From assembly GCA_018813065.1 (NCBI GenBank), contig JAHJCH010000354.1:1-58965 (forward strand): a stretch of 58,965 nucleotides of DNA, given 5' to 3'. Each line of letters starts with the position of its first letter. The stretch's first letter is position 1. The notes beneath the pieces were generated by a model. It was given only the letters and a program-made list of their open reading frames with translations, searched no databases and was not told where the DNA came from. This DNA is from Myxococcota bacterium. GTDB lineage: Bacteria; Myxococcota_A; Bradymonadia; UBA7976; UBA1532. The position numbers and the translations under genes are program-made. Positions 40,441 through 51,955 of the stretch are shown here, piece by piece.

Positions 40441-41648
40441 CCATCGGGCAAGCCGCAGAGGGGCCAGACGATGGCGGCGCAGTCAACGGCGTGGAGGCCC
40501 TCGACGCTGAGCGACGCGCAGGCCCCCGCCGTCGTCGGCTCCCCCTCGGCCCAGTCGGCGGCGGACACGGCCTGACCGTCCGCCCAGCGCCAAGCATCGA
40601 CGCCTGTCCGCCGCGCCGAGGTCCACAGCCGCGCGTCTGGGGGCAAGCGCGCGCTGGCCGTCTCGGCGGCGCGCCGTGAGGCGACGTGCATCGGCGCTTG
40701 GCGGGGGCCATCACAGGCCGCCGCGTCGGCCCTCAGGCGCGTGGCGCAGACCTGCCACCAGGCCCCCTCCAGCGGACCCAAGGGCTGACAAGGCTCGCAG
40801 AAGTAATAAGGCGACTGGGTGAGCGGGTCCCAGGCGTTGGGCACGGCGGCCCGCAGGGTCCCCAGCGGGCACAGCGGCCCACGCAGCGCGCGGCAGAGGT
40901 GATCGGGGCCGAAGGCGACGCAGGCCAAGCCCTGCGCGCAAGGCTTGGCCGGGCCGCAGGCCTCCCCCGTCTGGGCGCCATCGATAAAGGCAGGCCCGCA
41001 GGTGGCGTACTCCAGCCCGTTAAACAGCCGACAGCTCATCCCCTCGGGGCAGTCATCCCCCCCCGGCGCGCAGGGCAACAAGCAGAGGCCGATATCGGCG
41101 CGATCGGGGAGCCGCGCCAGGCAGCGCGCTTGATCGCTGAAGGGGTGACGACAGACCTCGTGGCGGCCATCCTTGAGCACCCGCAGGCTCTTGGGGCAGG
41201 GATCGCAGGCGTCGCCCTCGCCGTCACCGTCGGCGTCTGCCTGGCTGCGGTTGATCGTCGAGGGGCAGTTATCGCGGAAGTTGAGGATGCCATCGCCATC
41301 CTCATCCTCGCGCGCGGGGAAGCTCAGCGCCTCGACGGGGCTCAGCTGCTCGGCGCAGGCCGCCTCATAAGGATCTTGTGTATCGCAGAAGCGCAGGCAG
41401 CGGCTGACGCCAAAGAGGTTGACGCAGCCCAGGCCCGCCGCGCAGACCCCAGGCCCATCGCAGGCGGCGCCCTCGGGCAAGGCGACGGTCAGCGCATAGC
41501 AGCGCGGCGTGCCCGCCTCATCTACGGCGCAGGCCCGCCCCGCCTCACAGCCCGTGTTCGAGGCGGGCTCACAGCGGCGCGTCACGCTCGTCTCCCCGCA
41601 GGCCAACGGCCAGAGGAGGAGCAAGGACATGGTCAGGGGGCTTCTCAT
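40437..41648 (-). CDS. Cys-rich secreted lipoprotein with TSP3-like Ca-binding repeat
   Basis: [11 protein letters not shown] lipobox; [39 protein letters not shown]; many spaced Cys. Confidence 0.75.
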
Positions 41649-41703
41649 GATCGAGGCGGAGGATGCACAATCGCCCGCCACGACGACAAGGTTTTCAGCC
41701 CCC

Positions 41704-42846
41704 ATGCCTGGTGATCTCTTCGCCTACATCCGCGCCGAGGCCCTGGCCCTTGGCTTTGATCTCTGCGGCTTCACCCCGCTGGATGATCCCGCGCTTGAGA
41801 TCTCCGCCGCGCGCTTGACGAGCTGGATCGAGGCGGGGATGCATGGGGACATGGGCTGGATGACGGAGACGGCGGCGCTGCGGGCAGATCCTCGACGCTT
41901 GGCGCCTTGGGCGGTCGGCGCCGTGGCGCTGTGGCGGGCTTTCCCCGCCCCGCCTGCCTCGTCGCCGTCGAGCCCCCAACGCCCCCGAGGTCGGGTGGCG
42001 CGCTACGCCGCCCAGCGGGACTACCACAACGTGCTGGGCAAGGCGCTCAAGAAGCTACGCCAACGGATGCTCAGCTTTGATCCGAGCCTCCAAGCCCGGA
42101 TCAGCGTTGACAGCGGCCCTGTCCCCGAGCGGACCCTCGCTTATATGGCGGGCCTGGGCTTCTTTGGGCGCTCCACGATGCTGATCAACCCGCGGCTGGG
42201 CACCTATGGGGCCTTGGCGGTGATCTTGATCAACCGCCGCCCGCCGCCCGCCGTGCCCGAGCCCAACCGCTGCGGGCGTTGCACCGCCTGCGTGGACGCC
42301 TGCCCCACCCAGGCCATCTCCGCGCGGGGCGTCGATGCGCGCCGTTGCATCAGCTACTGGACCATCGAGCACCGCGCGCCCTACCCCGAGGGCGTCGCCG
42401 AGCGCCTGGGCGATTGGATCTTTGGCTGCGATGTCTGCCAAGCCGTGTGCCCGTGGAACCGCCGCGCGTCTGCGGCTGATCCTGTGGCTGATCCTGCGCC
42501 TTGGCGCCCACGGCCTGAGCTGGCGGCGCCGGATCTCGTGTCATGGCTGACGGTGGAGACAGAGGCGCTGCATGAGGCGGCGCGGGGGACGCCGCTGCGC
42601 CGCGCGGGGGGGCTGTGGCTGCGTCGCGCCGCCTGCGTGGCCCTCGCCAACCTGGGTGTGACCGCCGCGCGGCCCGCCTTGGCGGCTTTGGCGGCGCGGG
42701 CGGATGAAGATCCACGCCTGCGCGCGGCGGCGGCGTGGGCAGCGCTGCGGCTCAGCGCGCTAGAGCGCCCACAGCCCCACGCTGATGCCCAAGAGCAAGA
42801 GCCCGCCAGCGAGGAGCCACAGCCCCCGCCCTCGGCGCGGCGGTGA
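41704..42846 (+). CDS. queG: Epoxyqueuosine reductase
   Basis: [47 protein letters not shown]-terminal HEAT-like region. Confidence 0.93.
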
Positions 42847-44265
42847 CCAGCCCAGATCCACCTCCAGCGGCCCCTCCGCCAGCCCGCCGATCCCCTGAAG
42901 GTTGACCTCCACCTCATCCTCGCCGAGGGGGAAGCTGCTGACGCCCAGCCGCGCCAACTCCTCGGGGGTGTAGAGCACCGACATCAAGCCCCGCGTCCGC
43001 TGCGGGCTGAGGTTGATCCCCTCTTGGCGCAAGAAACCCTCAAGCTCCGCCAGCAGCTCCCCCGTGCTCTGATAGCGCCGCTGAAGCGGCTTGGCCAAGG
43101 CCTGCTGATGAATCCGCTCCAGGCCAGCGGGGACGCCAGGGATGCGCTCGGAGAGAGGCGGCGGCGTCTCCTCGCGGATGGCGTGCAGCGTGGCGAAGAG
43201 GTTATCGCGCAGGAAGGGGTTACGCCCTGTGATCAAGGTGTCGAGCAGGATGCCAAAGGCGAAGAGATCCGTGCGCGCGTCCACATCGCGCCCCTCCGCC
43301 TGCTCAGGGCTCATCGCGTGATGCGTGCCGATCAGCATCCCGCTGCCTGGGATCTCATTCCCCGCCCGTGAGATCCCAAAATCCACCAGCTTGACGACGC
43401 CGTTGACGGAGACGAGCACGTTGCTGGGGTTGATATCGCGGTGGATGATCTTCAGGGGGCGGCCCTCAAAGTCCGTGGCGCTGTGGGCGCCGTGGAGCCC
43501 GTCGGCCACGGCGCGGAGGATCTGAAGCGCGATCTCCATGGGCAGGCGCGCGGCGAGGCTGCGGCGCGCCGCGTCGATGAGATCATGCTCCACCCAGAGC
43601 GTATAGATCCCATGCCCCCGCCCCTCTTGATCAAAGCCGCGCTGCGCCGGAGCGCGCTTGGCCGGCTCGGGGCGGGCGCGGGCCTCCTCGGGGGCGATGA
43701 TCAAGGTGCGCAGCAGCTCTGGATGGGTCGCCTGAACCGATTGAATGAGCCCCGCCCGCCCTTGACCCGCCAAGCCATCGCTGATGATCAGCAGATCCAC
43801 CGCGCCCTCCATGGAGCGGACCTCCACCTCCACCGGATCAGCCGCGCAGAGGCACTCCACCTTGAGCCCCGCCGCCTCCAGCTTGAGCCGGATCGACGCG
43901 CGCGCGGCTTGATCCTCATGGGCGATGAGCACCCGGCGGGTGCGCCGCTGAGCGGCTTTAAGGAGGCGGCCCAGATCTACGCCGGGGAGGTACTCCATGG
44001 CGATATAGGCCTGGTCCTCCAAGATGCCCACCTCGTGGATCTCGATGATGTGTCCATGGTGAAGGTGGGCGGCGAGGCGGGCTTCATCGAGGAGCAGCTG
44101 GATAAACTCCGGCTTCTCGGCGAGCTGGGGGAGGATGCGCTTGATGGCGAGGTGGCGGGCGAAGCCGTCCACGCCGTGCTTGCGCGCGAGGTAGATCTCG
44201 GCGGTGCCGCCGACGGCGATGCGGCGCAGGAGCGTATAAGGCCCAAAGCGCGCGGGGAGCTTCAT
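42760..44265 (-). CDS. Ser/Thr protein kinase with receiver-like domain inserted in the catalytic domain; C-terminal TM
   Basis: YTLLRRIAVGGTAEIYLARK, AIKRILPQL, IIHRDINPSNVLV, VKLVDFGISRAG; insertion RVLIAHEDQAARASIRLKLEAAGL...DLLIISDGLAGQGR...LIIAPEE. Confidence 0.9.
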   Translation of the reverse strand: MKLPARFGPYTLLRRIAVGGTAEIYLARKHGVDGFARHLAIKRILPQLAEKPEFIQLLLDEARLAAHLHHGHIIEIHEVGILEDQAYIAMEYLPGVDLGRLLKAAQRRTRRVLIAHEDQAARASIRLKLEAAGLKVECLCAADPVEVEVRSMEGAVDLLIISDGLAGQGRAGLIQSVQATHPELLRTLIIAPEEARARPEPAKRAPAQRGFDQEGRGHGIYTLWVEHDLIDAARRSLAARLPMEIALQILRAVADGLHGAHSATDFEGRPLKIIHRDINPSNVLVSVNGVVKLVDFGISRAGNEIPGSGMLIGTHHAMSPEQAEGRDVDARTDLFAFGILLDTLITGRNPFLRDNLFATLHAIREETPPPLSERIPGVPAGLERIHQQALAKPLQRRYQSTGELLAELEGFLRQEGINLSPQRTRGLMSVLYTPEELARLGVSSFPLGEDEVEVNLQGIGGLAEGPLEVDLGWSPPRRGRGLWLLAGGLLLLGISVGLWAL

Positions 44266-44612
44266 GGGGTGGCGCTGTCGATGCTCGGGGCGCTGTCTTG
44301 AGAGGGCGCGGCGTCGAGGGGCCCTTGGTCGATGAGGGCGCCGCTGTCAGGCGTGGCGTCAGGCGCGGCGGCGTCAGGCGTGGCGTCAGGCGTGGCGGCA
44401 TCAGGCGCGGCATCAGGCGTGGCATCAGGCGCGGCATCAGGCATCCCAGCGTCATCATGAACCGCAGCATCCGCGCGCGTATCCACCTCAACGCAGGTGC
44501 GCGCCAAGCACACCTCGCCTCGAAAGCAATCCTGCGAGGTCGCGCAGCCACGCCCAGGCAGCTCGGGCTGGCAGCCGCAGAGGAGGAGCAGGGCCAACAT
44601 CACACGGCTCAA
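44262..44612 (-). CDS. Small lipoprotein with Asp/Ala/Thr/Pro repeat linker
   Basis: VMLALLLLCGCQPELPGRGCATSQDCFRGEVCLARTC; DATPDAAPDAATPDATPDAAAPDATPD. Confidence 0.7.
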   Translation of the reverse strand: MSRVMLALLLLCGCQPELPGRGCATSQDCFRGEVCLARTCVEVDTRADAAVHDDAGMPDAAPDATPDAAPDAATPDATPDAAAPDATPDSGALIDQGPLDAAPSQDSAPSIDSATP

Positions 44613-45307
44613 AACTGACCCCCCACGCGCAGGCTCTGACCGTCCGCGCCGAGCCCCCAGGTGAAGCCAGGCGCAGGCTCACCCGCGCTCAGCGGGCTAT
44701 CGCTGGCGAAGTAGAGCAGGGCCGCGCCGCCGAGGAGGAGCGCGCCCGCCGCGCCGAAGGAGAGGTTGCTATAAAACGCGTAGCCGTCGGCGTCCTCGAC
44801 CAAGGCCAGCTGATCGGCGCGGGCGTAGAGGGCCTTGTCCAGCCCCCGCGCCGTGGCCGCCTTATCATTGGCGCTGATGCCATAGAGGACCCCCAGCCCC
44901 GCCGCGACGCCGCCGAGGCCCATCAGCCCATAGCTCGTCATCGCCAGGGAGAAGCCTGGCCCTGTGTGTACGACCTTGATCTTCGGCTCAGCGTGTGTGG
45001 CGGCCTTGACGGGCGGCGCGGCCAGCACGCTGACCACCGTGACCTGCCCGGCCTTGATCTCAAACGCGCGGGACTCCACGGCGGCCCCCTCAGGGCGCGC
45101 CTCCAAGGTATGCGGGCCTGGGGTGAGGGCCCAAGGCGCGTTGAAGGGGCTCTCGCCGATGCGCTCGCCGTCGAGGAAGAGCGCCACGCCCGCCACGCCC
45201 GCCTTGATCTGCAAGGTGCCCATCTCCGCCTCTGCGGCGCGCGCGGGGAGGGAGGAGAGGTGGGTTAAGCACAGCAGGATCAGCGAGCCCCACCGGGTCA
45301 GAGCCAT
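44609..45307 (-). CDS. PEGA domain protein, exported
   Basis: Signal peptide; LQIKAGVAGVALFLDGERIGESPFNAPWALTPGPHTLEARPEG. Confidence 0.8.
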   Translation of the reverse strand: MALTRWGSLILLCLTHLSSLPARAAEAEMGTLQIKAGVAGVALFLDGERIGESPFNAPWALTPGPHTLEARPEGAAVESRAFEIKAGQVTVVSVLAAPPVKAATHAEPKIKVVHTGPGFSLAMTSYGLMGLGGVAAGLGVLYGISANDKAATARGLDKALYARADQLALVEDADGYAFYSNLSFGAAGALLLGGAALLYFASDSPLSAGEPAPGFTWGLGADGQSLRVGGQF

Positions 45308-45361: not shown

Positions 45362-47041
45362 TCAACGGCGTCGCCACCGGCCCCAGAGATATAACCCCAG
45401 GGTCAAGAGGAGGCAAAAATAGGCGAAGGCCTCACCGATCAGCTGATAGAGCGTCTGAGATTGCAGCAGGGGGGCGGACCACAGCAGCGTCTCCGCCCCG
45501 GTCGGGCGAGTCTGCTTGATCAGGCGCCCGTTGGCATCGATGAAGGCGCTGACCCCGGTCAGGGTGGGCCGCGCCATCGCCAAGCGATGCTCGATGGCGC
45601 GCGGCATGGCCAAGATCAAGTGCAGATAACGCTCGGCGGTCTGCCCAAACCAATCATCATTGGTCATATTGATGATTAAATGTGGACTTTGACCGGAAAA
45701 GGAGCGCATAAAACTTGAAAGGATGCCCTCATAACAAATTGAGACGGCCAAACGCACAGGTTCACCCCAACGTGTCGTCTCCATCACCTTCACCTCAGTC
45801 CCAGCCTCTAGATTGCCGGCAGTCGGGATATACTTATAAATCCAAGGGAAATACTCTACGAAGGGGATATACTCACCAAAAACCAGCGGCTTCACCTTGT
45901 CATAGCGGCCCAAGACCGCGCCATCCTCGGCCAACAACCAAGCGGAGTTATAGGGATTAAAGGGCGCGTCGCCTTCCCAGCGTGGTGTTGCGCGTGGCTC
46001 AAGGCTCGTGCCGCCGAAGATGAGTGGGGTCTTAAAGCCACGGATCGGCGCGGCGCGCTCCGAGATCGGCGTGGGCTTGATGATATCTTGGCGATAATCC
46101 TTCACCAGCGCGGCCTTAGAGGGGGCGACGTGGCGGGCGTGCCGTGGGATCGCCTCAAAGCGATAAGCGCTCTCAGACCAGAGGATCAGCTCCGCGCCCT
46201 CCGCCTCTGCCTGAGCGGAGAGGCGTTGCAGCTTGAGGAGATGATTTTGGATATTCTCCTCGGGCTCCTTTTGAAAGATCCCCACATCCGCCTCAACGAT
46301 CCCCAAGCGCAGCTTCGGCGCGTCTGCCATGCGGCGGTCGATCTGATACATCCGGGCGCCGCCATAGAGGAAGACGACGGCGAGCATCACGGCGGTCACC
46401 TTGGTGGCGCGCATGGGGGGGCGGCGACCCTCCAGCTTGGCGCGGACCCAGAGATAGAGCACGGCGTTGACGCGATAGATCAGGAAGGTCACGGCGGGCA
46501 CACCCAGCAGATCGACGACCTGCATCACCAAGGGGAAGCTCGCTTGGCTATTGCCCATATAAGCGGGGAAGATCCGGGGGACGGCGATCTCCACGGCCAC
46601 CATCGCCAGGGGCGCCGCCCACTCTAGGGGCACGCGGGTGGTGTTGACGATGCGGTTGACGAGGAAGGCCCACAAGGCCCACAGGACGCCCATCCAAGCG
46701 CCGTGAAGGATCATCAACAGCCAGGCGATGGGTGAGGGCAGGTGACCGAAGGTCTCAAGCATCTCAGCCAGCCAGTGATAGCCGCCGACGTTGATCAGGG
46801 TCCCGGCCAACCAGCCCCAATAGAAGGCGGCCTTAGGCGCCTTGTCGCGCAGCACCCACAGCAAGGGGACGTGGCTGAACCAGATGAGATAGAAGAGGTC
46901 CACCTCGGGGGCGAAGGCGGTGGGGAAGGCGGTAAAGGTCAGGATCGCGGAGAGGCTGACGAGGAGGAGATCGAGGAGGGCGCGGCGCGTGAGGCGTCGG
47001 CGGCGGCGTGGTGGCGAGGCGTGGCGTTGAGGGCGGCTCAT
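45362..47041 (-). CDS. lnt: Apolipoprotein N-acyltransferase
   Basis: Multi-TM N-terminus; nitrilase-type ELILWSESAYRFE, VSICYEGILSSFMRSF, NMTNDDWFGQTAERYLHLILAMPRAIEHRLAMAR. Confidence 0.92.
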   Translation of the reverse strand: MSRPQRHASPPRRRRRLTRRALLDLLLVSLSAILTFTAFPTAFAPEVDLFYLIWFSHVPLLWVLRDKAPKAAFYWGWLAGTLINVGGYHWLAEMLETFGHLPSPIAWLLMILHGAWMGVLWALWAFLVNRIVNTTRVPLEWAAPLAMVAVEIAVPRIFPAYMGNSQASFPLVMQVVDLLGVPAVTFLIYRVNAVLYLWVRAKLEGRRPPMRATKVTAVMLAVVFLYGGARMYQIDRRMADAPKLRLGIVEADVGIFQKEPEENIQNHLLKLQRLSAQAEAEGAELILWSESAYRFEAIPRHARHVAPSKAALVKDYRQDIIKPTPISERAAPIRGFKTPLIFGGTSLEPRATPRWEGDAPFNPYNSAWLLAEDGAVLGRYDKVKPLVFGEYIPFVEYFPWIYKYIPTAGNLEAGTEVKVMETTRWGEPVRLAVSICYEGILSSFMRSFSGQSPHLIINMTNDDWFGQTAERYLHLILAMPRAIEHRLAMARPTLTGVSAFIDANGRLIKQTRPTGAETLLWSAPLLQSQTLYQLIGEAFAYFCLLLTLGLYLWGRWRRR

Positions 47042-47177: not shown

Positions 47178-50100
47178 CTATGGCCTCTGAGCGGACGACG
47201 CGCTGCGCTGAGCGTCTGGGATGATCTGCAACCTCTCCTCCTCCGCCTCTTGGAGATCGGCAACCCGCAAGTACACTTTGCGCTCAACGCGCGTGTTGAC
47301 CTGCACATCGGCGTGAAGCTGCCCAAAAGGATCACGCACCGTGCGGATGAAGGGCGCTTGTTCGCTTAAATCAGATCGCAGGTTCCCCACGAGGTACAGG
47401 TAATAGCGCCCCCGCAGCGACGGATCTCCCGCGCTCTTCCACTCATTCCATGTACACGCCTGTCGCCGCGCCGCGATCCCCGAGGACTTCAGCTCGACGG
47501 CGCGATCCAGGCGTCCTGATGCGTCGAGGGACAACAAATCAAAGCCCGGCCACGCTTCGCTGACGCCGCGCAGCTCACGCTCAAAGACGCCGCGCAGCGC
47601 GCCCCAAGCGGCTTTGATGTGGTCTGGGTGTGATACATCAAACACGCGCCCCCCTCCCGCGCGCGCCAAGCGTGCCTGCTCAAAGGACATCGCCACAGAC
47701 ATCCCCAACTGATCCAACGCAGTGAGATCGGTCCTGTGCGTCGCGTATCCATGAGTCCCGCCCTCGCGCATTTGCACGCTCGCGGCGCCCTCCACCGTGT
47801 GCTGCGCTGAAGGGGACATGATCCGCACGGGGCAGCCCAGGACGCTCAAGGACGCTGCGGGCCAAAGGGGATGGCATGGCGCTTCTGGGGTGTCCGCAGG
47901 CGTTGGGGCAAGGGCTTGCGCCGGGGATGCTTGAGGGGAAGGCGAGGTGAGGGGCGCTGGCCCCGCCGTCTTGGGCGCGGGCGCGGGCTCAACCCACAGA
48001 TCGTCATCCCCATGCAAGCGACGCTGATACTCTTCGAGATCCGCAGACGCGCCCGCGCGCCGCAAGATCCGCAGACGCGCCGCCTCATCGCGCGCCTTGA
48101 TCAGCGTCAGGAACGACTCATAACGAGGCGCCCCAAAGAGGACAGCCAGGGCCTCAGCGAGCCGCTCAGCGTCTTCCTCAACGGGCGGCCAAGCCTGCGA
48201 ACTCCAGCGCACGAAGGCGTGGCTTGGATGATCGCGATCGACGTACACACCGACGGGCACGTTCGCCGCGCCGATGAGCTGTCCGTCGAGCTTCGTCGTC
48301 AACATCAGCGCCTTTACGGGCTCAACGCCCTGCAGGAACGCGGCGAGCCTATGCGCGTCTAAGCTCGCCTGGCGCTCCTCTTGACGCTCCACGCCCAAGC
48401 GCGCCAAGAGCGCGGGTCCACACGCCTCAATGGCCTTACGGAAAAGATCAAGCTCCGCGCCGAGGAGAGCGGGCGCTTCTGGCGTTGGCGATCGCTCAAG
48501 AGCAGCCTCCAAGAGTCGCACGCCAAAGCAGGCTTGGAGAGGCTTCTTCGCGTGGGCGTCCCCTTCAAGGATAAAGATGGGCACGTCGAATCCCTCACCT
48601 GCCCCACGCTGCTCGGCGAAGAACACCTGGTGCGCGGGCCGCCAGACGAGATTCTCCCCAAAGAGCGTTGGCAGGCGCGCCTCAGCGCGCTTGACCTCGG
48701 GTTGGTGCCCCACCAGCAGCTCCATCAAGTGACGACACCCTGTAGACAAGAGACGACGGGCCGCGCGTACGTCGGGCGCGTTTTGCGACACGATCTCCAA
48801 CTGCCTCAACCACACCTCAGCGTCATCCAGCGTAAAGGTCGAGGGTGTCAGCTCCGCGCGGACGCCGAGGCGCGCGGCGAAGCCGCTGGGATCGTCGATC
48901 TCCAAGACAGGCAGCAGCGGCCCCGTCTGCTTAAAGCGACGATCCAGCTCCCGACTCGGGCGCCAAGCCTGTGAGGCGCGACGTGGCCCGTGCTTAGTGG
49001 GGCAGAAGGCGGCCTCCTTGAGTCGCCACAGCCAGAGGTTATCGCAGAGCGACACCGTCTCATTGGTGTAGGCGCGCGGGGGCTTGCGCCTGCCCGGCGA
49101 GTGCCCCTTGGTCAACGCGACGACCGCGCGCGCCACCGGCTGAAGGCTGGGCCAATGCGCTTGGAGGTGTTGATACAGCGCGCGCCCAACCCCGCCTTGT
49201 GCGTCCGCAGCGGCGGCGGCGAGGAGCACATCGAGGTGCTCTAGGTGATGTATGCCATAGAGCCACCGACGGCGCTCGTGTAGGTCCTTGATCGCCTTGG
49301 CATCGAGGCTGTCGATGAGCGTCGCGCGCCACGCATCCCACACCGCGTCGGGGAGCGCCTGAAAGATCCAGCCGCGTGGCTTGATGAAGCCCTCCGTACG
49401 CAGCCAGCCCGTGTTGTGGTCCTCAACGTCTTGGAAGTGGACCGCGCGGAGGTGGGCGTTGACGCCCAACCAAGAGAAGAACGTCCGCCAACGCTCGCGC
49501 TCATCCGCAGGCAGCGCGGCGTCCTCATCCTCGTCTAAGCCGACCTCATCGACGTCGAGGGTCTCCTCATCCGTGGCTTGCGCCTGATCGTCCAGCGACG
49601 CGTACCGCGCCAGGTAGCCGGAGAAGGCCGTCGGCCCCAGGATAAAAGGGACATCCGGCGAAGGCTGACCGGCCTCTTGGCACGCGCGCAACAAGACCTC
49701 GACCGACTGATCCCCGATCCAGTCCTCGCCAAAGTACGCGCGATAGGCCGCGACCCACTGCACCCCGCCATCGGGGGCACGGCAGGGCACCTCCAAGCGC
49801 GCGAGGGCGAAGAGCGCCCGCTGATTGCCCAGGCGCTCAAAGGGCAGCCGCTCCCCTTGTCCTGTCTTCCCCGAGAGCTGACAGACCGCTGCGAGCTGCG
49901 CGATGTCGTGAAACCGCGCGCGTTGATGTGCCTGATCCCAGGCCATGCTGGGTAAGACGCTGGCGCGCATCACCTCGGGGAACTTGAAATCTTGGAGCCC
50001 AAACAGCCCCTGCCAAGCCACCATCTCCGCCTTAAGTGTCTCTTGTCGCTCTTGGCGGCTCAGCTTGCCCCAGCACACCGCCTGACTGAGAAAACAAAGC

Positions 50101-51872
50101 CCCGGCAGCGGCACCTCACCGCGCAAAAACTGAGGCGGATAAAAGGCCGCGCGATCCCCCACGGCCTCGCGATGACATGTCCTGTCCTCGCGCACATCGA
50201 CGGGCATCAGCGGCAGCGCGCGCACCTCAGCGACGAAGGCCGCTTGCTCCGAGGCCACATAGCCCGCCCAAAGGCGCTCAAGGAGCTGAAGGATCGGATC
50301 AACAACCACCATGCGCTGAAGATCCTCCACTGCGCGGCTCCGCGTTGGATCAGCAGCGGCGAGAGTTTGAGCGGCCTCAACGGGTGAGAGAACCGCCGCG
50401 CCGTGATCAGCCAACACGCGCGCCTCATCGAGGGCGCACCACGCTGCGGCGGGGAAGGCGCGCCGCGCGTGCGTGGCGTTGACGGGGAGCACTGTACGCA
50501 ACGCCTCGCCGATGTCGGGGCGCAGTGGGGGGAGCACGATCACCTGTGGCGCCAACAGCGCGCCGACCTCAGAGGGGACAAACGGGTACACCGCGATGGC
50601 GGCCCGGATCGCTTGATAGATCACCTCGGCCAATGGACCTTGAACCAGGCGATCCCGTGCCAGGAGCATCAACGCTTTCTTGGCGTCCAAGGCCAAGAGC
50701 GCGGGGAACAGCACCTCCACGAAAAGCCGCGCCGCCGCCCGCACCAGGAAGGCGTTATAGTCTGGGGCGCACTGCCCCTCGGTCTCTGGCACCACGCGGA
50801 CATGTTGACGCGACAGCCCCGAGGCGAACGCGCCATTGATCAAGAAGCCATAAGGCGTGCGTTCAGCCGTTGGCAAGAAGACGTGCAGCAAGGCGTCCTT
50901 GATCGGCGTAGAAGCGTCGGCCTCAACGCGCGCGGCGACGCTGACCTCGGTGATGTGTACGTCGGCCCAGGCCATGCCCTCCAACCCACCTCGGTGCGCG
51001 CCGATCTCGATGTCCCCGTCGTGCGCGACAAGATATGTCTTATGCACTGTGGAGTCTGCGTGTTGCGCCTCAAGGCGCACGCGGTACAGCCCACGCGTGC
51101 TCATAGACGTGACCCTTGACCACGGCTCGACCTCAGCATGAGTCACCCGCCGAGCGCGCACGATCAACCACGCCCGCGAGACCTCACCGATCACGATCTC
51201 AACCGCCTCTAGTTGCTTAAGGAAGAGGAGCGTCGTCTCGGGGAGGCCCTCAAGCCCTCGCTTTATCTCCGTGTAGCGCTCATGGGCATCCTCTACAGAG
51301 AAGGGGAAGAAGAAGGCGGTGGTCATGCCCAGCGCGCGCAGCTCGGCCCAGCGTGGGTGAGGCGCCTTCATCGGCCAAGGGAGCCGCATCAGCGGGGCGT
51401 ATCTTTGCTGGGTGAACCCCGCAGCCTTGAGGGCACCAAGGCTGCGGGCCTCATCGAAGCAGAAGGCATAGGAGCATGAATAGATCTCAGGCGCGCGGCT
51501 GATCTCAAGGACAGACTTAAAGCCCATGCCTTTGTGCCCGATGCTCGCGCGCCGCTTGGCGCCCTCCACCTCGCCCACCGCCTGCTTGGTCGAGGCGCTG
51601 ATCCCACAGATGCCTCGAACATCATCCTCGCTCAACGCGCGGCCGGAATTGGCGAACCACAGCCCCTCGGCGTGCAGCTCGATCCTCAGCCTGGCGGGCG
51701 CGCCAGGCGCGCTGGCATCATCCGCATTCTGGATCAGCTCATAGAGCAGCCGACCTCGGTAATTACGCGCGATCTCATCCTCTTGGCCGATGTCCTCCCT
51801 CAACCGTTGACTGCTGGTCCGATAGATATTGAGGTTCTCCGCGCGGATCTTCTCGAAGAGTGTGTCTTCCAT
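47178..51872 (-). CDS. Giant GHKL (sacsin-type HATPase) protein with DUF3883-like C-terminal domain
   Basis: LLYELIQNADDAS, LWFANSGRALSEDDVRGICGISASTK, RASIGHKGMGFKSVLEI; C-terminal GFDLLSLDASGRLDRAVELKSSG. Start at M23 of listed ORF. Confidence 0.85.
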   Translation of the reverse strand: MEDTLFEKIRAENLNIYRTSSQRLREDIGQEDEIARNYRGRLLYELIQNADDASAPGAPARLRIELHAEGLWFANSGRALSEDDVRGICGISASTKQAVGEVEGAKRRASIGHKGMGFKSVLEISRAPEIYSCSYAFCFDEARSLGALKAAGFTQQRYAPLMRLPWPMKAPHPRWAELRALGMTTAFFFPFSVEDAHERYTEIKRGLEGLPETTLLFLKQLEAVEIVIGEVSRAWLIVRARRVTHAEVEPWSRVTSMSTRGLYRVRLEAQHADSTVHKTYLVAHDGDIEIGAHRGGLEGMAWADVHITEVSVAARVEADASTPIKDALLHVFLPTAERTPYGFLINGAFASGLSRQHVRVVPETEGQCAPDYNAFLVRAAARLFVEVLFPALLALDAKKALMLLARDRLVQGPLAEVIYQAIRAAIAVYPFVPSEVGALLAPQVIVLPPLRPDIGEALRTVLPVNATHARRAFPAAAWCALDEARVLADHGAAVLSPVEAAQTLAAADPTRSRAVEDLQRMVVVDPILQLLERLWAGYVASEQAAFVAEVRALPLMPVDVREDRTCHREAVGDRAAFYPPQFLRGEVPLPGLCFLSQAVCWGKLSRQERQETLKAEMVAWQGLFGLQDFKFPEVMRASVLPSMAWDQAHQRARFHDIAQLAAVCQLSGKTGQGERLPFERLGNQRALFALARLEVPCRAPDGGVQWVAAYRAYFGEDWIGDQSVEVLLRACQEAGQPSPDVPFILGPTAFSGYLARYASLDDQAQATDEETLDVDEVGLDEDEDAALPADERERWRTFFSWLGVNAHLRAVHFQDVEDHNTGWLRTEGFIKPRGWIFQALPDAVWDAWRATLIDSLDAKAIKDLHERRRWLYGIHHLEHLDVLLAAAAADAQGGVGRALYQHLQAHWPSLQPVARAVVALTKGHSPGRRKPPRAYTNETVSLCDNLWLWRLKEAAFCPTKHGPRRASQAWRPSRELDRRFKQTGPLLPVLEIDDPSGFAARLGVRAELTPSTFTLDDAEVWLRQLEIVSQNAPDVRAARRLLSTGCRHLMELLVGHQPEVKRAEARLPTLFGENLVWRPAHQVFFAEQRGAGEGFDVPIFILEGDAHAKKPLQACFGVRLLEAALERSPTPEAPALLGAELDLFRKAIEACGPALLARLGVERQEERQASLDAHRLAAFLQGVEPVKALMLTTKLDGQLIGAANVPVGVYVDRDHPSHAFVRWSSQAWPPVEEDAERLAEALAVLFGAPRYESFLTLIKARDEAARLRILRRAGASADLEEYQRRLHGDDDLWVEPAPAPKTAGPAPLTSPSPQASPAQALAPTPADTPEAPCHPLWPAASLSVLGCPVRIMSPSAQHTVEGAASVQMREGGTHGYATHRTDLTALDQLGMSVAMSFEQARLARAGGGRVFDVSHPDHIKAAWGALRGVFERELRGVSEAWPGFDLLSLDASGRLDRAVELKSSGIAARRQACTWNEWKSAGDPSLRGRYYLYLVGNLRSDLSEQAPFIRTVRDPFGQLHADVQVNTRVERKVYLRVADLQEAEEERLQIIPDAQRSASSAQRP

Positions 51873-51955
51873 GCTCTGCCCCTTCGCGACATGAGAGTGT
51901 TGTTCGCCGTTGTCGCCGAATACGACATCACGCTTCAAAGATCAAAGGAGCACGT

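Follow-up and report, generated by a model that had tools for sequence, protein, structure and literature searches.

The window, that is, the entire 58,965-nucleotide stretch of DNA analyzed here, encompasses a reverse-strand gene for a Hanks-type Ser/Thr kinase that is preceded by genes for a small lipoprotein, a PEGA-like protein and the apolipoprotein N-acyltransferase Lnt (Table 1). The kinase is a single unbroken protein that matches the Pfam family PF00069 in two stretches flanking a gap (3.6e-26) and contains the complete set of Hanks-type motifs, namely, the VAIK Lys (K42), the αC Glu (E61), HRD (H275-R276-D277), the catalytic-loop Asn (N282) and DFG (D295-F296-G297). Given that all these residues are invariant in nine sequences, the window protein and the eight full-length orthologs described below, the kinase is probably catalytically active.

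Table 1 Features of the nested kinase and of the genes upstream of it (residue numbers refer to the kinase).
Feature	Position in the window	Strand	Basis or comment
Hanks-type Ser/Thr kinase with nested pseudo-receiver	42760..44265	-	501 aa, single open frame
Kinase N-lobe, hinge and helix αD, residues 1-108	43942..44265	-	alignments with orthologs and insert-free kinases
Nested pseudo-receiver, residues about 109-239	43549..43941	-	profile match, hhalign, AlphaFold, Foldseek
S162-D163	43777..43782	-	S162, phospho-Asp column; D163, acceptor-plus-one
About 20 extra low-complexity residues, β4-β5 linker, window copy only	43624..43683	-	predicted disordered, low pLDDT
Remaining kinase C-lobe, αE onward, with HRD and DFG, residues 240-431	42973..43548	-	Pfam, ortholog alignment
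C-terminal transmembrane helix, putative tail anchor, residues 481-501	42763..42825	-	hydropathy peak 2.03
Small Cys-rich lipoprotein with Ala/Asp-rich tail	44262..44612	-	overlaps kinase start by 4 bases
Secreted PEGA-like protein	44609..45307	-	overlaps lipoprotein gene by 4 bases
Apolipoprotein N-acyltransferase Lnt	45362..47041	-	Pfam LNT_N 2.2e-23; upstream neighbor

A C-terminal hydropathy peak similar to that of the window protein (1.7–2.6) is found in five of the eight full-length orthologs and is absent in those of genomes G002, G007 and G009, such that a terminal transmembrane helix is present in six of the nine full-length proteins. The closest solved kinase structures to the full-length model identified by Foldseek are those of Mycobacterium tuberculosis PknB, with which the window kinase has the catalytic motifs in common; compared with PknB-type Hanks kinases, however, it contains the nested domain, lacks PASTA repeats and appears to be tail-anchored, with almost no extracytoplasmic part. 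The C-terminal tails of the kinases in the window and in loci L051, L054, L056 and L057 share an acidic motif resembling E-V/I-D/E-V-D/N-L (for example, EIDVDLDDLDD or EVEVNL), which might be a docking motif; the tails are otherwise unalignable.

In the window, as in each of the eight loci with a full-length ortholog, the gene immediately preceding that of the kinase encodes the lipoprotein with the motif C-x-P-x-x-PGR-x-C..DCF..E.C. Its Ala/Asp/Pro-rich low-complexity tail differs greatly in length among the relatives, and the protein belongs to no Pfam family. The PEGA-like neighbor, in which PEGA was recognized by eye and yields no Pfam hit, is kept in eight orthologous loci, and lnt in seven. 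A search for an insert-free sister locus detected Lnt, but not the rest of the operon, in G001 and in three genomes of a sister family, and yielded no Lnt match in G003. Given that sister groups thus encode Lnt but lack the other three genes, the kinase is, on gene order, part of a family-specific, envelope-linked gene cluster. The contig of G010 includes Lnt, the PEGA-like gene and the lipoprotein gene but ends just past them, so that the kinase of this genome is unassembled rather than shown to be absent.

Several other genes around the nested kinases were noted. In the window, the listed coordinates of a queG-like open reading frame (41509-42846, forward strand) place its last 87 bases (42760-42846) over the end of the kinase gene, which runs toward it. 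A 1586-residue protein encoded at 47178-51938 on the reverse strand is TmtA-like (PADLOC anti-phage defense models, 1.3e-54, mainly residues 26-410); the best match spans part of the model, and the protein may be a divergent member. In G002, the gene directly downstream of the nested kinase encodes a PilZ domain (L051, 6822-7487, forward strand; 6.8e-26), a possible link to c-di-GMP; in G008 and G012, the downstream gene is dnaK-like, not PilZ.

A receiver homolog nested in the kinase domain

The insert comprises about 130 residues between helix αD (...DLGRLLKAAQ) and helix αE (PMEIALQILRAVADGLHGAHS), which in the full-length AlphaFold model span residues 98-107 and 243-261, respectively. In six close kinases of the host genome, just a few residues separate αD and αE (for example, DLLALHNHFRRT-KSLM-PTHLVAYVAARVAEGLDYAH), which identifies the site as the αD-αE loop. 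The insertion thus lies within the kinase domain, as proposed in the earlier note, but one helix past the hinge and not at the hinge itself, as that note had it. By alignment with the insert-free kinases, the position is that of a kinase insert domain, the αD-αE loop being the place of the "kinase insert" of receptor tyrosine kinases (PMC8662651). The other kinases found by scanning the host contigs appear to lack the insert, judging by match length in the search coordinates (about 265–290 codons for those hits that cover both lobes). The full-length model was built from nine sequences, and its N-lobe is poor (pLDDT <50) because the alignment is shallow; Foldseek searches with this model retrieve ordinary kinases.

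Single-sequence searches of Pfam and NCBIfam failed to detect any significant receiver family in the insert. The response regulator receiver family PF00072 does not match the window protein and matches one of the nine inserts at E 0.17, short of the cut-off, and the Pfam scan of the nine inserts (threshold E 1) lists none of the small pseudo-receiver families named in PMC12632262 (PF06490, PF21155, PF21194, PF21695, PF21714 and PF22368). Detection of the receiver required a profile built from the nine inserts. In the PDB, the best match of the profile is the HupR receiver (6.4e-5 and 8.8e-5), followed by an NtrX-type receiver (0.004); receivers account for 34 of the 41 chains retrieved at E up to 10, just the first two of these being below 0.001. 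When the profile was compared by hhalign with 23 receivers of the host genome, the two aligned end to end over 110 columns (96.4% probability, score 57), whereas 60 column-shuffled controls reached at most 3.4% and a score of 19, and the reversed profile 0.3%.

The AlphaFold model of the insert is an α/β receiver fold with the order β1-α1-β2-α2-β3-α3-β4-(loop)-β5-α5 and pLDDT mostly above 90, rather than a disordered loop, with the exception of the extra residues of the window copy, where the β4-β5 linker consists of 31 amino acids compared with 11 in the eight orthologs. The predicted elements are β1 (110-115), α1 (119-131), β2 (136-141), α2 (144-151), β3 (158-162), α3 (about 170-180), β4 (186-190), β5 (222-225) and α5 (229-237); there is no α4, for which the 11-residue linker of the orthologs leaves no room. 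The best eight Foldseek matches in the PDB are all receivers (CheY4, CckA, HupR and others), with E values of 1.5e-4 to 9e-4 and TM scores of 0.54–0.65 of the query. An alternative is that the insert is some other α/β domain, for example, a VWA or Rossmann-like one, given the lack of a significant single-sequence receiver match and the fact that the best single-sequence Pfam match is a weak one to VWA_CoxE (E 0.015). The predominance of receivers among both the profile matches and the top structural matches, together with the end-to-end hhalign alignment, renders this exceedingly unlikely. Profile comparisons and structural models concur in showing that the insert is a receiver homolog with a predicted receiver fold nested in a Ser/Thr kinase, in accord with the original reading of the region between the lobes.

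Conservation of the insert and loss of the phosphorylation residues

Homologs with the same insertion, a search for which the earlier note had suggested, do exist: full-length orthologs with the insert at exactly the same place are present in eight further genomes of this family, and a ninth ortholog is cut by a contig end. Together with the window, the insert-bearing orthologs represent seven genera. Their inserts are 114–119 residues long, that is, about 115, and the identity of the orthologs is 31–40% in the insert and 50–56% over the whole protein. No other genome among 57 of the class and a 377-genome sample of the phylum yielded a full-length match to a profile combining the flanks and the insert (E thresholds 1e-15 and 1e-18, respectively); the class search returned only three partial C-terminal matches. 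The window assembly is fragmented (361 contigs), so that a chimera or a frameshift might be suspected as the source of the nested architecture. The probability of such an artifact is negligible, given the single open frame, the synteny and the identical architecture in eight other genomes, and an assembly chimera is ruled out by the orthologs.

In a phylogenetic tree of the kinase domain constructed with the insert left out, the nested kinases cluster together (support 99/99; recovered in 100% of the 200 bootstrap trees), so that a single insertion event is enough. In within-genus pairs, dN/dS is about 0.28–0.37 for the insert, compared with 0.07–0.24 for the N-lobe and 0.21–0.28 for the C-lobe; these estimates show the insert to be under purifying selection and faster-evolving than the kinase lobes.

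The domain was originally regarded as a phosphoacceptor that would couple two-component and Hanks-type signaling, with an acidic pair following β1 and D163 as the acceptor. The alignment of the nine sequences does not bear this out. The acidic pair column contains H116/E117 in the window protein and DD in none of the nine. D163 occupies the acceptor-plus-one position and is Asp in the window protein only; the acceptor column itself contains S in the window protein and E (three), A (one) or D (four) in the other eight. The column of the switch Thr (I190 in the window protein) is occupied by I, L, V, M or P, never Thr, and no Lys is found in the Lys column (about E226), although variation in the β5-α5 loop makes the exact placement of this column uncertain. 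Thus, of the conserved receiver residues, none of the nine proteins retains the DD pair, T or K, and five lack the acceptor D. By the definition of PMC12632262 (a receiver homolog lacking the catalytic residues), the insert is, on sequence, a pseudo-receiver.

That the nested domain is nevertheless a working receiver, Asp-phosphorylated by a histidine kinase and thereby switching the Ser/Thr kinase, would be compatible with the receiver fold predicted by AlphaFold and recognized by Foldseek and with the Asp retained in the acceptor column in G006, G007, G008 and G012, and some phosphorylation may persist when DD, T or K is lost (PMC12632262). We consider it very improbable, however, given the substitutions described above, the missing α4, the highly variable pocket loops and the fact that no histidine kinase was found among the neighboring genes examined. 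The phospho-pocket loops rank among the most variable parts of the insert, and the entropy is 1.81 bits in the former pocket compared with 1.09 bits at the strand N-termini. The lowest variability is observed in β1 with its R-x-R-R entry and in HPELL-R before β4. The invariant residues R108, R110, R111, G154, D157, H181, P182, E183 and R186 lie on or just before the strand starts, on the side where the chain arrives from the kinase. Such a conserved base combined with a drifting pocket is, as far as the alignment goes, the opposite of the pattern that a working receiver would require.

The insert could also be a passive spacer, that is, a receiver relic that merely folds without disturbing the kinase and has no regulatory role, as its evolution faster than that of the lobes would suggest. 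Conservation sits at fold positions of ordinary receivers (D-L at β3, HPE before β4), and given that the HPE and DL motifs are common in such receivers, it may reflect a folding need rather than an interface. A passive spacer nevertheless appears unlikely: the domain is kept in all orthologs found, across the seven genera and at near-constant length except for the window copy, dN/dS is well below 1, and the basic R-x-R-R entry is invariant in the orthologs and is not seen in the 23 ordinary receivers of the host.

A candidate regulatory module and its known counterparts

Our preferred interpretation, which we hold to be somewhat more likely than not, is that a receiver was captured once in the family ancestor and now serves as a phosphorylation-independent docking or allosteric module of a membrane-tethered kinase. 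Under this scenario, in the common ancestor of one uncultured family, a single event would have placed a receiver in the αD-αE loop of an apparently active, membrane-tethered Hanks-type kinase; both the phosphorelay chemistry and helix α4 would then have disappeared from the receiver, which became a fixed part of the kinase. We infer that the receiver packs against the kinase through its conserved base, at the point of chain entry and exit, and that the module, a docking or allosteric element next to the hinge and αD, does not depend on Asp phosphorylation for its action. It might recruit a partner or a substrate, or lock the state of the kinase until a partner or ligand binds, in the manner of the ShkA and CikA pseudo-receivers in histidine kinases. 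Because the lipoprotein and the PEGA-like protein are co-encoded, the gene cluster suggests that the input to the kinase concerns the cell envelope. More tentatively, and with somewhat less than even likelihood in our estimation, the folded pseudo-receiver in the αD-αE loop could directly gate a bacterial Ser/Thr kinase by partner or ligand binding, under the control of an envelope lipoprotein system.

Known pseudo-receivers are arranged in tandem with DNA-binding or histidine-kinase parts. The domain described here resembles the bacterial pseudo-receivers reviewed in PMC12632262 in combining the receiver fold with the absence of catalytic residues and in its expected phosphorylation-independent action, but differs in being nested in a Ser/Thr kinase, lacking α4 and being missed by PF00072; the main text of that review does not mention 'insert', 'Hanks' or 'threonine kinase'. 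Known pseudo-receivers act through protein contact or ligand binding, and in both ShkA and CikA the pseudo-receiver is a cis-acting inhibitor of the kinase that carries it, the one in ShkA inhibiting autophosphorylation until a ligand acts (PMC12632262). These resemble the present case in that a pseudo-receiver is joined in cis to a kinase, but ShkA and CikA are histidine kinases in which the domain is not nested, and ShkA binds c-di-GMP at α4β5α5 (PMC12632262), whereas the window insert has no α4. The fungal protein Rim15 likewise combines a protein kinase with a receiver, in which the phospho-Asp is replaced by Glu, Ala or Gly in Ascomycota and α4 is modified and mostly shortened rather than lost outright; this receiver is C-terminal, not nested, and the kinase belongs to the eukaryotic Greatwall family (PMC8510515).

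Receiver-kinase fusions are usually strings of domains, and the inserts of receptor tyrosine kinases are known as docking and phosphorylation segments, not as a folded receiver. The kinase insert domain of these enzymes (the DE insert) is likewise a fast-evolving insertion in the αD-αE loop, and the families are not detectably similar there (PMC8662651). Literature searches, of incomplete coverage, returned no published case of a Ser/Thr kinase with a receiver nested in it, in line with the initial impression that this is not a standard architecture, and a survey of prokaryotic kinase domains mentions neither 'receiver' nor 'inserted' (PMC1262709).

In the window protein, a receiver has been built into the catalytic domain itself and retained while its chemistry was lost, in a form invisible to single-sequence Pfam searches. 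The activation mechanisms of bacterial pseudo-receivers have been called a mystery (2025 review, PMC12632262), and the nested kinase is a compact test of how a pseudo-receiver works in bacteria. The case shows a route by which two-component parts may become fixed regulatory pieces of Hanks kinases and, if gating by the pseudo-receiver proves true, it would represent a bacterial equivalent of the kinase insert domain, derived from a building block of two-component signaling.
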